This document shows positions 20,351 to 24,871 of a DNA stretch of 44,070 bases, piece after piece. The stretch is taken from assembly GCA_005887685.1 (NCBI GenBank), contig VBHJ01000082.1, positions 1-44,070 on the forward strand. Direction: 5' to 3'. The stretch comes from Chloroflexota bacterium. GTDB lineage: Bacteria > Chloroflexota > Dormibacteria > Dormibacterales > Dormibacteraceae. The position numbers were made by a program, and so were the translations under genes. The stretch's first letter is position 1. Each line of letters starts with the position of its first letter. The notes under the pieces were generated by a model, which did no database searches, had not been told where the DNA came from, and saw only the letters and a program-made list of their open reading frames with translations.

Positions 20351-20829
20351 TGCACCGCGCCCATGTGATCACCGTGAGCGACGGAGTTTCGGCCGGCACA
20401 CGGACCGACACCAGCGGTCCCGCCCTGCTCGACTTGCTAGAGCGCGCGCACTTCCAGATTTCAGGACCGGAGGTCGTCCCCGATGACCAGTCGCGCATCA
20501 ACGACGCGATCGTCGCCGCCGTGGGCGGCGGTGCAGACCTGGTCGTCACCACCGGAGGCACCGGCCTGGGCCCGCGTGACGTCACGCCGCAGGCGACGTC
20601 GATGCTGATCGACTACGAGGTGCCCGGGGTGGCCGAGCTGATGCGCAGGGCCGGTGCTTCGAGCACGCCGATGGCGGCTCTCTCGCGCGGGGTCGTAGGT
20701 GTGCGGGGCCGGTCGCTGATCATCAACCTGCCGGGCAGCGCGAGGGGCGCGAGCGAATCACTCGAAGCCGTGATTCCGGTGCTCGGCCATGCGATCCAGC
20801 TTCTGCACGGCAACACGAAGCACGAGTGA
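20350..20829 (+). CDS. mogA: MogA/MoaB-family molybdopterin adenylyltransferase
   Basis: The protein adenylylates molybdopterin ahead of molybdate insertion. The 159 residues show VITVSDGVSAGTRTDTSGP at the N-terminus, the nucleotide/substrate motif TTGGTGLGPRDVTPQAT (about 67-83) and LPGSARGASES near the C-terminus. The GTG start at 20350 is the last base of the inserted element plus TG, so any original upstream start or ribosome site has been replaced. The stop overlaps the pxpA start as GTGA. Confidence 0.93.
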   Translation: MHRAHVITVSDGVSAGTRTDTSGPALLDLLERAHFQISGPEVVPDDQSRINDAIVAAVGGGADLVVTTGGTGLGPRDVTPQATSMLIDYEVPGVAELMRRAGASSTPMAALSRGVVGVRGRSLIINLPGSARGASESLEAVIPVLGHAIQLLHGNTKHE

Positions 20830-21503
20830 ACATAAACGCGGATATCGGCGAGGGGGCGGGCGAGGACGAGGCGATCCTGGCCTGCGTCGACAGCGCGAAC
20901 ATCGCCTGCGGCGTGCACGCCGGCTCGGCGTCGATCACCATCGCCACCGCCTGGCGCTGCCGCACGCTCGGCGTGCAGGTCGGCGCCCATCCGGGCTATG
21001 ACGACCGCTCTGGATTCGGGCGCATCGAACGTTCGATGTCAGCCTCTGAGATCGAGGCATTGATCGCCTTCCAGGTCGCGAGCCTCGCCGCGGTCGCCCC
21101 GATCGCTTACATCAAGCCACACGGCGCGCTGTATCACCGGTGCCAGCGTGACCCGGAGGCGGCCGACGCGCTGGCGCGAGTCGCCAAAGCTCATGGCGTC
21201 GGAGTGCTGGGGCAGCCCGGCTTTGAGATCGTCGCCGCAGCCGAGCGGGCAGGCATCCCCGGCTATCGCGAGGGCTTCGCCGATCGCCTGATGCTGCCGG
21301 ACGGAAGCCTCGCGCCGCGGAGCCAGGCGGGCGCGGTTCTCGACCCGAACCTCGCCACTCAGCAGGCGGTGAGCCTTGCCCGTTCCGGCGGCTACGACAC
21401 CATCTGCGTGCACGGCGACACGCGGGGGGCCGGCCAGGTCGCGGCGGCGGTGCGCAACGCGCTCCGCGAGGCCGGCATCGAGACCATGCCCCTGCGGCCG
21501 TGA
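20826..21503 (+). CDS. pxpA: 5-oxoprolinase subunit A (LamB/YcsF family)
   Basis: PxpA works with PxpB and PxpC to hydrolyse 5-oxoproline to glutamate with ATP, repairing a common metabolic by-product. The 225-residue protein has the family marks INADIGEG, DSANIACGVHAGS, GAHPGYDDRSGFGR, YIKPHGALYH and CVHGDTRGA. The length is slightly short of the usual 245-255. The start (GTG 20826) is coupled to mogA. Its partners are separate, on the opposite strand at 23.3-24.9 kb, with three unrelated genes between. Confidence 0.95.
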   Translation: MNINADIGEGAGEDEAILACVDSANIACGVHAGSASITIATAWRCRTLGVQVGAHPGYDDRSGFGRIERSMSASEIEALIAFQVASLAAVAPIAYIKPHGALYHRCQRDPEAADALARVAKAHGVGVLGQPGFEIVAAAERAGIPGYREGFADRLMLPDGSLAPRSQAGAVLDPNLATQQAVSLARSGGYDTICVHGDTRGAGQVAAAVRNALREAGIETMPLRP

Positions 21504-21519
21504 ATCCCGCTGGCCTGGC

Positions 21520-22320
21520 ATGAGCGCGGAGATAAGGGAGCTCACCGAGCTCGAAGACCTCCGCCAGCTCGCCGAGCTCTTCGCGGTGGTGTGGGGACGC
21601 TCCGGCGCGCCGCCGATCAGCTCCGACATCCTGAGGGCGCTGGCGCACTCGGGCAACTACATCTCGGGAGCGTTTCTGGACGGGCGGTTGGCCGGCGGGC
21701 TCGTAGGTTGGCTGGGAGGCGCGCCGCCAGGTCAGCTGCTCATGCACTCCCACATCCTTGGCGTATCGCCGGAGCGCGAAGCCCGCGGCCTTGGTTTCGA
21801 GCTCAAGCAGCACCAGCGGCGCTGGTGTCTCGCGCGCGGAGTCACGTTGATGGAGTGGACGACCGATCCCCTGGTCCGCCGCAACGTCTACTTCAACCTC
21901 ACCAAGCTCGGTGCGGTCGCTCCGGTTTACCTCGTCAACTTCTATGGAGAGATGCGAGACGGCATCAACACCGGGGATGAGTCGGACCGCCTGCTCATCC
22001 AGTGGCGTCTCGACTCGCAGGCAGTGGAGGATGCGGCAGCGGGCCGGCCCATAGAGCTCGACGTGGAGAAGCTGCGCAGCTGGGGCAGCGACGCCATCGT
22101 GACCGTCGGCCCGGCGGGGGAGCCCGTGGTCAAGGCGTCGCCGGCTCGCGTCCTTATATGTCAGGTGCCCGAAGACATCGTCGCCCTGCGACATTCCGAC
22201 CGTGGCCTGGCACGCGAGTGGCGCATGGCGCTGCGCGATGCGCTCGGCGGATCGATCGACCGCGGTTACCGGATCACAGGTGCGACGCGCTCCGGCTGGT
22301 ACGTCCTGGAGAACCAATAG
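21520..22320 (+). CDS. GNAT-fold acetyltransferase-like protein (COG3375-like)
   Basis: A 266-residue protein starting MSAEIRELTELEDLRQLAELF, the N-terminal helix of a GNAT fold. It continues with HSHILGVSPEREARGLGFELK, which corresponds to the acetyl-CoA-binding turn (usually Q/RxxGxG/A), then WTTDPLVRRNVYFNLTKLGA, typical of the predicted GNAT group COG3375. The C-terminal half (about 160-266) forms a second domain without clear assignment. The ATG at 21520 follows pxpA by 16 bases. The substrate is unknown. It is followed by the UGA-containing peroxiredoxin after 10 bases. Confidence 0.8.
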   Translation: MSAEIRELTELEDLRQLAELFAVVWGRSGAPPISSDILRALAHSGNYISGAFLDGRLAGGLVGWLGGAPPGQLLMHSHILGVSPEREARGLGFELKQHQRRWCLARGVTLMEWTTDPLVRRNVYFNLTKLGAVAPVYLVNFYGEMRDGINTGDESDRLLIQWRLDSQAVEDAAAGRPIELDVEKLRSWGSDAIVTVGPAGEPVVKASPARVLICQVPEDIVALRHSDRGLAREWRMALRDALGGSIDRGYRITGATRSGWYVLENQ

Positions 22321-22330
22321 ACTTTTTCAT

Positions 22331-22813
22331 GTGCTGCAGGTAGGGGACCAAGCGCCCGACTTCAAGCTGCCGACCACGGGCGGGCAGGAGCTGACACTGG
22401 GCGACGCGCTCGAGAAATATCGAGCGCTCGTGTTTTTGTTCTATGTCCTCGACTTCACGGGTGGTTGAAGGACAGAGCTGACCGAGTTTCGGTCCAGGAA
22501 CGACGATGCGGTGGCAAACGGTGTTGGCATTTACGCGATCAGCGTCGATTCGGTTTTCTCGCATCAAGCTTTTGCCAAGGAGCTCGGCGGGCTGCCCTTC
22601 GACCTGATCGGCGATTTCGAGCGCAAGATGGTGACCGACTACGGCGTGCGCCGCGACGACGTTGCCGGCTACTCGGGCATGGCGCGCCGCACCATCTTCA
22701 TCATCGACCGCAGCAGAGTGATCCGATGGACGTGGGTCGCGAAGCGCGAAGAGCCCCAGCCCGACTACGACGCGGTGATCGCGGAAGCGAAGCGGATCGC
22801 GAGCGGCGCATGA
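22331..22813 (+). CDS. Peroxiredoxin (AhpC/TSA family), probable selenoprotein with Sec46 encoded by UGA
   Basis: The frame from GTG 22331 to TGA 22811-22813 encodes a complete 160-residue peroxiredoxin interrupted only by TGA at 22466-22468. Before it: VGDQAPDFKLPTTGG and FYVLDFTGG. After it: RTELTEFRSRNDD, IYAISVDSVFSHQAF, FDLIGDFERKMVTDYGV, ARRTIFIIDRS. The UGA falls on the peroxidatic Cys of the DFTGGC-x-x-ELTEFR motif, and the protein contains no cysteine. A hairpin with loop G lies 17 nt downstream. Selenocysteine insertion would give a one-Sec peroxidase reducing peroxides; without it only 45 residues form. The last bases overlap the DinB start (ATGA). A Cys-to-stop mutation is the alternative. 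selA, selB, selC and selD are not in the window. Confidence 0.85.
22469..22497 (+). promoter_or_regulatory. Candidate bacterial SECIS element after the peroxiredoxin UGA
   Basis: Immediately after the UGA, bases 22480-22485 (GACCGA) pair with 22489-22494 (TCGGTC) around the loop GTT (22486-22488). CT at 22478-22479 pairs with AG at 22496-22497, leaving C22495 bulged. Seventeen bases separate the UGA from the loop, and the first loop base is G. Both fit the published bacterial SECIS rule (16-37 nt, G in the first two loop positions). Confidence 0.7.
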
Positions 22814-23319
22814 GCGCGCCCAACAACGTTGTCGAACCGATCGAAAAATCGTGGAAAGAGCTCAACCAGCTGGTCGAGTCGCTCGGGCCGATGGGCCTGA
22901 CCATGACCGGCCCCGATGGTTGGGCGGTCAAAGACCACCTGGTCCACGTCGCCGCGTGGGAGCACTCGTTGATCGCATTGCTCGACGGGTCAGATCGCAG
23001 GTCGGCCATGGGCATCGGCCCGGAAGCGAGCGAAACGGATTCGATCAACGCGGCCGTGTGGTCGCTGCACAGGGAAGAGAAACCCGAGCAAGCACTGGCG
23101 TACTTTCGGCAGACACACACTTTGCTGATGAAGCTCCTGGGCGGGATGAGCGACTCCGACCTGGCGCTTCCGTACAACCACTACCAGCGGAACGACCCGC
23201 GCGACCCCGGCGACGACCGGCCCGCGCTGGATTGGGTGGCGGGCAACACCTACGAGCACTACGCCGAGCACATCACGTGGATCAATCAGCTGATGAGCAA
23301 GTCCAGCACGTCGCGCTGA
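22810..23319 (+). CDS. DinB/YfiT-family four-helix protein
   Basis: A 169-residue protein of the DinB-like family of metal-binding four-helix bundles, which include thiol S-transferases and mycothiol-dependent isomerases. The metal histidines are at HLVHVAAWEHSL (about 38-49) and YEHYAEHITWINQL near the C-terminus, and the family phrase GWAVKDHLVHVAAWE is intact. It is coupled to the peroxiredoxin by an ATGA overlap, so a redox or thiol-related task is plausible but not shown. The 3' end overlaps the convergent pxpC by 34 bases. Confidence 0.88.
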   Translation: MSAPNNVVEPIEKSWKELNQLVESLGPMGLTMTGPDGWAVKDHLVHVAAWEHSLIALLDGSDRRSAMGIGPEASETDSINAAVWSLHREEKPEQALAYFRQTHTLLMKLLGGMSDSDLALPYNHYQRNDPRDPGDDRPALDWVAGNTYEHYAEHITWINQLMSKSSTSR

Positions 23320-24218
23320 GCCGCCCGCATCCGCAGGGCTTCATCGATCGGCGTTTCGGCAAATCGGACCTCGTCGCCGGGCGCCAGCTGCGCGGCGACG
23401 GGAATCGATGCGCTCGCCACCGTGAGCACCATCGGGTATCCGCCGGCCGTCTGGTGGTCGGCCATGAGCAGGATTGGCTGCCCGCCGGCGGGCACCTGCA
23501 CCACACCCGCGACCAGGCCGAACGACAGCAGCTCGTCGCCAGGCGCCTCGAGGGGCGGACCTTCGAGCCGGTAGCCCATGCGATTGGAGTCGTGGCTCAC
23601 GGTAAACGTCGAGCCCAGAAGCGCCTCACGCGATTCGACGTGCAGGCGCGTGAAGTGAGGCCCCGGGATCGCGTGCAGGATGCGGTCGGCGTACCGCGGC
23701 TGGAGCCCATCGGCGAGGCTTCGCCCCGCGACAAGTGGACCTGACGGCTCACCGGCCGAGACCACATCGCCCGCGACCAGCGCGCGCCCGTTCATCCCTC
23801 CCCGGGCGCACATCAGGTTGGTCGACATCGACCCCAGCCAGCGATCCGCCACGATGCCACCGGCGACAGCGATGTACGCGCGCGCACCGGCGCGGCGCCC
23901 ACCGAATGTCAGCTGATCCCCAGCGCTGAGGAAGAAACCGGTCCACATCGGGGCCGCGGCGCCGTTGACGAGGGGCTGAAAGTCGGCGCCCGCGATCGCC
24001 ACCAGACGCGGACCCTCGGCGACCAGGTGCGGCCCGCTGAGCGTGCACTCGAGTGTGGCAGCGCCGCGATCGTTGCCCACGATGAGATTTGCCGCCGTGT
24101 GCGCGAAGCGGTCCATGGCACCCCCGGGTGGCACGCCAGACGCGACCGCCTGCGGCCGCCCGATGTCCTGGATGGTCGTCAACAGACCAGGCCGGATGAC
24201 GCGGAAAACCTCGGTCAT
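23286..24218 (-). CDS. pxpC: 5-oxoprolinase subunit C (biotin-dependent carboxyltransferase-like)
   Basis: The larger partner of PxpB in the 5-oxoprolinase complex, homologous to the allophanate hydrolase AHS2 domain. The 310-residue protein begins MTEVFRVIRPGLLTTIQDIGR and contains GVPPGGAMDRFAHTAANLIVGND, ARAYIAVAGGI, SHDSNRMGYRLEGPPL and ILLMADHQTAGGYP, all typical. The frame is open upstream, but ATG 24218 overlaps the pxpB stop as ATGA and fits the family start. Confidence 0.94.
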   Translation of the reverse strand: MTEVFRVIRPGLLTTIQDIGRPQAVASGVPPGGAMDRFAHTAANLIVGNDRGAATLECTLSGPHLVAEGPRLVAIAGADFQPLVNGAAAPMWTGFFLSAGDQLTFGGRRAGARAYIAVAGGIVADRWLGSMSTNLMCARGGMNGRALVAGDVVSAGEPSGPLVAGRSLADGLQPRYADRILHAIPGPHFTRLHVESREALLGSTFTVSHDSNRMGYRLEGPPLEAPGDELLSFGLVAGVVQVPAGGQPILLMADHQTAGGYPMVLTVASASIPVAAQLAPGDEVRFAETPIDEALRMRAAQRDVLDLLIS

Positions 24219-24871
24219 TCGCCGACCGAGAAGAACTTCACCCGGTCGCCAGCTCGAAAAAGCGAGGGAGGGTCCGAATCGGGAAGAAAGAGCTTGACCG
24301 AGGTGCGGCCGATGAGATGCCACCCACCCGGGCTTACCAGCGGGTAGATACCTGTCTGATGGCCCGCGATGGCCACCGAACCCGCAGGCACCTGGGTCCG
24401 CGGCACGGGCCGCCGCGGGAGGGCGAGCTCGTCGGGCAGCGGCCCGAGGTAGGCCCAGCCGGGCACGAAGCCGACCAGGAACACGCGGTAGATCGGGCGT
24501 CCATGGAGCTCGATCACCTGGTGGGTCGAGAGGCCCAGCTGCAGCGCCACGGCGTACAGGTCCGGACCGTCGTAGACGACCGGGATCCTGTGCAAGCGGC
24601 CAGGTTCGTCCAGGGGCGGACGCTTCGTGGCGAGGCGGTTGATCGCCGCGGCTAGGGCTTGGTGCGTGATCTGGTCGGGGTCGAAGTGCACGGTGACACT
24701 GGCGTGTCCGGCCACGGCCTGACGGACGTCGCGCCGTTTTTTCAGTGCAGCGGCAAGGGCGATGGCACGCGTGTTGAGCGCCGTGTCGAGCTTCGTGCCC
24801 AGCTCGGCGAGGACCGCCGTGTCACCGAGCGGATGGACGCGGACCCTCACGGTGGAGTGCTGCGGCGGCAT
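24215..24871 (-). CDS. pxpB: 5-oxoprolinase subunit B
   Basis: The AHS1-type partner of PxpC. The 218-residue protein shows HPLGDTAVLAELG near the start, VTVHFDPDQ, HRIPVVYDGPDL, VFLVGFVPGWAYLGPLP, PRTQVPAGSVAIAGHQTGIYP and SPGGWHLIGRT. It is coupled to pxpC. Its start region overlaps the 3' end of the upstream DUF4013 membrane-protein gene by 50 bases, which may mean that ATG 24871 is right and the membrane-protein tail is long, or that a later start is used. Confidence 0.94.
   Translation of the reverse strand: MPPQHSTVRVRVHPLGDTAVLAELGTKLDTALNTRAIALAAALKKRRDVRQAVAGHASVTVHFDPDQITHQALAAAINRLATKRPPLDEPGRLHRIPVVYDGPDLYAVALQLGLSTHQVIELHGRPIYRVFLVGFVPGWAYLGPLPDELALPRRPVPRTQVPAGSVAIAGHQTGIYPLVSPGGWHLIGRTSVKLFLPDSDPPSLFRAGDRVKFFSVGE

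Follow-up and report, generated by a model that had tools for sequence, protein, structure and literature searches.

A probable selenocysteine peroxiredoxin without the motif proline in a Dormibacteraceae genome

The locus and the closest described systems

A selenocysteine-containing peroxiredoxin of the TxxU type was reportedly described in Eubacterium acidaminophilum by Soehling in 2001. The TxxU peroxiredoxins form an established family of selenoproteins. Their motif is given as PxxxTxxU in a passage of a review citing Soehling et al. 2001 (PMC13188914), and excerpts of two other papers list 43 (PMC1088965) and 12 (PMC1794560) TxxU sequences. Prx-like UxxC thiol:disulfide oxidoreductases are also listed as selenoproteins in excerpts of PMC13188914 and PMC1088965. 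Since TxxU selenoperoxiredoxins have long been known, the gene described here, taken alone, adds one more member to them.

We analysed a stretch of 44,070 nucleotides (the window), contig VBHJ01000082.1 of a Chloroflexota bacterium from the family Dormibacteraceae. An earlier note on this DNA had claimed a complete peroxiredoxin frame broken by a lone TGA, exactly at the peroxidatic cysteine, in a protein without other cysteines. All of this holds. The frame occupies positions 22331..22813 of the plus strand, starts with GTG, ends with a TGA stop at 22811-22813 and encodes 160 amino acids including residue 46, the candidate selenocysteine (Sec). The only in-frame stop before the terminal one is the TGA at 22466..22468 (plus strand), codon 46, and there are no cysteine codons. 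The read-through protein matches the Pfam family PF00578 (AhpC/TSA) over residues 4-133 with E = 1e-31 and 109.9 bits (cut-off 26). In alignments with PDB sequences, residue 46 stands opposite the cysteine of the T/SxxC motif in 2cx3 and 2ywn, and opposite a serine in 3hjp. The in-frame TGA thus very probably encodes a selenocysteine at the active centre of a peroxide-destroying enzyme. The gene would probably be cut or missed by ordinary gene calling, as the same note expected, since translation table 11 with a minimum length of 100 aa lists only a 100-aa ORF from 22511 in this frame.

The protein agrees with the known TxxU selenoperoxiredoxins in its AhpC/TSA family, putative peroxidatic Sec and T/SxxU motif. 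However, it has valine in place of the proline of PxxxTxxU, as the motif stands in the review passage (PMC13188914). The NCBIfam PrxU model NF040737 gives 57.3 bits, below its cut-off of 270, and no NCBIfam model reaches its cut-off on this protein. Archaeal Bcp4/PrxQ proteins (3hjp, 2cx3) are among the nearest solved structures by both sequence and fold, but they have the motif proline and no Sec; moreover, 2cx3 contains a second cysteine (CTKELC in the alignment), whereas our protein has none there. The UxxC oxidoreductases have a related fold and Sec, and TGA forms of them were read in three Dormibacteraceae genomes; however, they are separate genes with UxxC instead of T/SxxU. Finally, the PDB entry 1xxu, titled hypothetical protein Rv2238c, is presumably the mycobacterial 1-Cys peroxiredoxin AhpE. 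It would share a catalytic cycle with an external thiol, but it is a cysteine enzyme and a weaker sequence match (6.7e-11).

Conservation of the TGA and the decoding components

The genome that contains the window is a draft of 3.05 Mb in 264 contigs, 94% complete. A search for selA, selB, selD and tRNA-Sec with the UCA anticodon, proposed earlier as a check, found all four. The selA gene (498.9 bits) adjoins selB (339.6 bits) on one contig (C20). The selD gene (339.8 bits) has its own Sec codon, TGA within HGAGUACK. The tRNA-Sec scores 69.4 bits (cut-off 47) and is identified by ARAGORN as tRNA-SeC with anticodon tca (TCA in the gene, UCA in the RNA). Scans of the whole window yielded no tRNA with ARAGORN and no Rfam matches. 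Two FdhA-like genes on contigs C259 and C223 have in-frame TGAs in the contexts UHAP and UHGP, which we take to be the Sec site of formate dehydrogenases; both score below the family cut-off, and one match is partial. Counting the peroxiredoxin, selD and the two FdhA-like genes, at least four genes thus contain TGA where Sec is expected. The selenocysteine trait looks very common in the phylum: selA was found in 322 of 400 genomes (321 over the cut-off). It was found in 32 of the 33 phylum genomes with a peroxiredoxin match and, at E<=1e-60, not in the remaining one (G095). Because selA is so frequent anyway, this co-occurrence is weak evidence.

These 33 genomes are those of the 400 that match the peroxiredoxin at E<=1e-25. 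All contain an in-frame TGA, one of them two, and TGA is the active-site codon in all 30 loci that were read out. Within the family, the gene is present in 40 of 42 genomes, the other two being 78% and 71% complete. Each of the 40 has exactly one in-frame TGA, directly seen as the active-site codon in 23. We also searched GTDB genome contigs for [ALT][FTA]Y[VH][LF]DF[TS][PGS]G, leaving the following codon free. This gave 64 stretches, 59 of which were relatives, and the next codon was TGA in 59 of 59. One of these loci (L111) contains an additional in-frame stop. By their taxon labels, 51 loci belong to Chloroflexi/Chloroflexota or Candidatus Dormibacterota (in several spellings). The other eight are labelled Terriglobia, Binatia/Binatota, Thermomicrobiales, Bacillota, Proteobacteria or unidentified, with one or two loci each. 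Many of the 59 records come from one sampling project and thus are not fully independent.

In 15 close copies selected by 82-93% identity (105 pairs), the uncorrected pN/pS ratio is 0.125 before the TGA and 0.162 after it. By these ratios, purifying selection acts on both sides of the TGA, and the decay that might be looked for downstream does not occur. A random nonsense mutation had been considered unlikely from the window itself. This is borne out by the 40 family genomes, which all have a single TGA in the gene, and by the selection downstream.

One alternative is that the gene is a pseudogene or the TGA an assembly error, with a cysteine codon turned into TGA by mutation or misreading. 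Indeed, TGC or TGT becomes TGA by a single change, and a draft as fragmented as this one may contain errors. However, a read error in a single assembly does not explain a TGA common to the 40 gene-bearing genomes of the family; the TGA recurs in all 59 named loci, the downstream part is under purifying selection, and the peroxiredoxin stop overlaps the start of the next gene. We consider this explanation extremely improbable. Hardly less improbable is a genome-wide reading of UGA as another amino acid, such as tryptophan, or general readthrough. Any code in which TGA is a sense codon would leave the frame open. However, the terminator of the same gene is also a TGA, overlapped by the ATG of the downstream gene (ATGA), and the gene likewise ends with TGA in the 14 close copies compared. 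Moreover, the genome contains tRNA-Sec and the Sec genes, and the UGA occupies a cysteine position followed by a conserved hairpin. Given the 40 family genomes, the 59 loci and the purifying selection, we ruled out that the gene is a pseudogene, that the TGA is a sequencing error and that the genetic code is changed, and return to Sec as the reading of codon 46.

The candidate SECIS hairpin

A SECIS-like hairpin was found at 22479..22495 of the plus strand. Its stem GACCG/CGGUC pairs 22480-22484 with 22490-22494 around the loop AGUUU (22485-22489). The stem begins 11 nt, and the loop 16 nt, after the UGA; G is the second loop nucleotide, and the energy of the 17-nt hairpin is -7.6 kcal/mol. 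The position of the loop G and the 16-nt spacing lie just inside the published bacterial SECIS criteria, as given in the Fig. 2 legend of PMC13188914. However, when the 45 nt from the UGA are folded alone, a different hairpin is preferred (-9.8 kcal/mol), and the same 45 nt have no extra stability compared with shuffled sequences (z = -0.29). A simplified script for the published criteria passes 46 of 60 sequences, often via another hairpin, while some members fail; it also passes 689 of 1677 control codons. The thresholds therefore do not discriminate and were dropped as a test. Since the window sequence alone is not unusually stable and controls pass as well, the evidence for a SECIS element is comparative.

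For the comparison, 16 representatives of the 60 sequences (at least four differences in 27 nt) were folded against synonymous recodings that encode the same peptide. Eleven of them fold better than 90% of their recodings, and two are not better than the mean. The lowest mean z values of the gene fall on codons +4 (-1.73) and +3 (-1.66) after the UGA; the background, taken from 126 positions elsewhere, has a mean of 0.00 (sd 0.24, minimum -0.70). By this measure the conservation of the hairpin exceeds what codon choice explains.

Base pairs were counted in the alignment A5, which contains 20 of 38 family-type sequences, hand-picked to differ. In the short hairpin, 91.7% of cells pair, and changes on both sides are seen at two of six pairs. 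Two of five measures of this count are not above the level of shuffles (116/500 and 117/500). If one arm is slid by -1, the covariation score is nearly the same (0.177 versus 0.178), but only 54.2% of cells pair. A longer competing hairpin (A5 columns 5-14 with 20-30) was rejected, as it has no both-side changes, unlike the short one. Hairpins near the same place, with different letters and loops, are also possible in many distant members. In eight of the more distant loci (L094, L095, L097, L098 and L102-L105) the possible post-UGA hairpin has a loop, for example CUUGC, without a G near its start, unlike the standard bacterial SECIS model. Taken together, the comparisons identify the structure directly after the UGA as a predicted SECIS hairpin.

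The motif proline and the predicted catalytic cycle

The proline that opens the PxxxT/SxxC motif, seven residues before the peroxidatic residue, is Val39 in the window protein. In 30 sequences found by similarity, this position is occupied by valine (27), histidine (2) or leucine (1), and never by proline. The position three residues before the peroxidatic one, Thr43 here, has threonine in 26 of these sequences, serine in three and glycine in one. All 59 pattern-found loci also have valine at the proline position; however, the search pattern required V or H, and thus they are no independent count. A further pattern, YV[LF]DF[TS]xG-TG, which leaves the last letter of the codon free, matches once each in 28 of the 400 phylum genomes, with TGA in all 28; of these, 24 were known as TGA from the similarity search, and the remaining four were then read and also have TGA. 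Most proteins of this kind have no cysteine whatever (50 of the 59 pattern-found loci and 24 of the 30 similarity-found sequences).

More distant relatives were collected with a cysteine relative from a family member (G036), itself containing the proline. This query matches 140 of the 400 genomes at E<=1e-20. The best 30 loci of the longer list were read and 29 counted, as L145 has no active-site match. Twenty-four have cysteine, all with the proline; five have Sec, four with the proline and one with valine. Thus both cysteine and Sec occur among the proline-containing relatives. The Cys/Sec alternation at residue 46 that the earlier note had proposed to look for is therefore present among these distant relatives and absent among those with the same motif, where 59 of 59 have TGA. 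That note mentions neither the missing proline nor the hairpin. No cysteine form without the proline was found among the phylum and GTDB sequences examined, including the best 30 loci of this query.

In a tree of 50 rows, no branch separates all proline-less sequences from the rest (secV: four changes). When two long rows (L131 and L157) are dropped, the 27 proline-less and 21 proline-containing rows of the resulting 48-row tree part at one branch (support 92/82, not starred). A single origin of the proline-less Sec sequences is thus likely on the basis of these trees. As far as seen, what is new here is this proline-less, apparently Sec-only clade. No report on selenium or selenocysteine in Dormibacter, or on peroxiredoxins in Dormibacterota, was found among the openly licensed papers searched, and the words peroxiredoxin and Prx are absent from the main text of PMC12013277.

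The window genome has seven other AhpC/TSA matches (E<=0.01; the draft is 94% complete), none of which is a PxxxT/SxxC peroxiredoxin. By their motifs we take them to be proteins with FYRGAWCPYC and DCPIC, an SCO1-like and a TlpA-like match in one ORF, and TlpA-like, DUF899-like and glutathione peroxidase-like proteins. The first of these (L117) is the cysteine form of the UxxC-type gene mentioned above; three genomes of the same family have a second Prx-like gene of this type with TGA in FYRGDWUPYC (L128 in G087:C39, L129 in G027:C31 and L132 in G391:C231). It is conceivable, though we lean against it, that the clade is obligately Sec-based, having dispensed with the proline and mostly with cysteines too, that the protein is the only T/SxxC/U-type peroxiredoxin of its genome, and that peroxide defence of Dormibacterota-like bacteria depends on selenium. 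If so, Sec chemistry would make the proline unnecessary, and the return to cysteine would therefore be closed.

We hold with high confidence that the gene encodes a Sec peroxiredoxin, with UGA 46 decoded as Sec and a peroxide-attacking 1-Sec cycle served by an external thiol. Firstly, SelB and tRNA-Sec would decode UGA 46, guided by the hairpin whose stem lies 11 nt past it. Secondly, Sec46, in a thioredoxin-type fold, would attack peroxides and form selenenic acid, acting as a peroxidase with the likely support of Thr43 and Arg120. The roles of these two residues are assumed from what we know of the peroxiredoxin family; Arg120 is invariant, as a sequence position, in 32 sequences. Finally, as the protein has no cysteine, reduction of the oxidised Sec would require a thiol from another molecule. 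The enzyme is thus probably a one-selenocysteine peroxidase of the 1-Sec type. The AlphaFold model (pLDDT 96.1) has Sulfolobus Bcp4 as the best PDB match of its fold.

A different function of a Sec protein with this fold, such as thiol:disulfide exchange, selenenyl transfer or peroxide sensing, is unlikely but deserves more weight than the alternatives discussed above. The missing proline of PxxxT/SxxC and the absence of a resolving cysteine would agree with it. On the other hand, the protein retains Thr43 and the invariant Arg120 and contains no CxxC or UxxC motif, and its predicted fold is closest to PrxQ/Bcp structures. We therefore prefer the peroxidase.

Within 20826-24871 of the window, the peroxiredoxin lies between pxpA and the convergent pxpC/pxpB, presumably 5-oxoprolinase genes, as it does in most family-type loci. 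The PxpA-like LamB/YcsF gene (20826..21503, plus strand), a conserved neighbour in most of these loci, is followed by a GNAT-like gene with a weak Pfam match directly upstream of the peroxiredoxin (21523..22320, plus strand). The downstream gene whose ATG overlaps the peroxiredoxin stop belongs to the DinB superfamily/DUF1706 (22810..23319, plus strand). The order MoaC-MogA-PxpA-(GNAT)-peroxiredoxin-(DinB)-PxpC-PxpB is found, whole or in part, in 37 family-type loci, whereas none of these neighbours was found in 22 other loci. The DinB superfamily includes thiol transferases, and the DinB-like neighbour is a candidate reductant partner. However, it stands beside the peroxiredoxin in 20 of the 37 family-type loci and was not found beside the other 17, and thus is hardly required in general.

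This gene adds a well-supported candidate selenoprotein to Candidatus Dormibacterota and their kin. By title, the records of this group are largely from soil, whereas a table of PMC1794560 lists mostly anaerobic hosts for Sec peroxiredoxins. The peroxiredoxin is also an example of a gene that is probably cut by ordinary annotation. Finally, an apparently Sec-only site without the proline would offer a direct way to test the role of this conserved residue and to see if Sec makes it less necessary.
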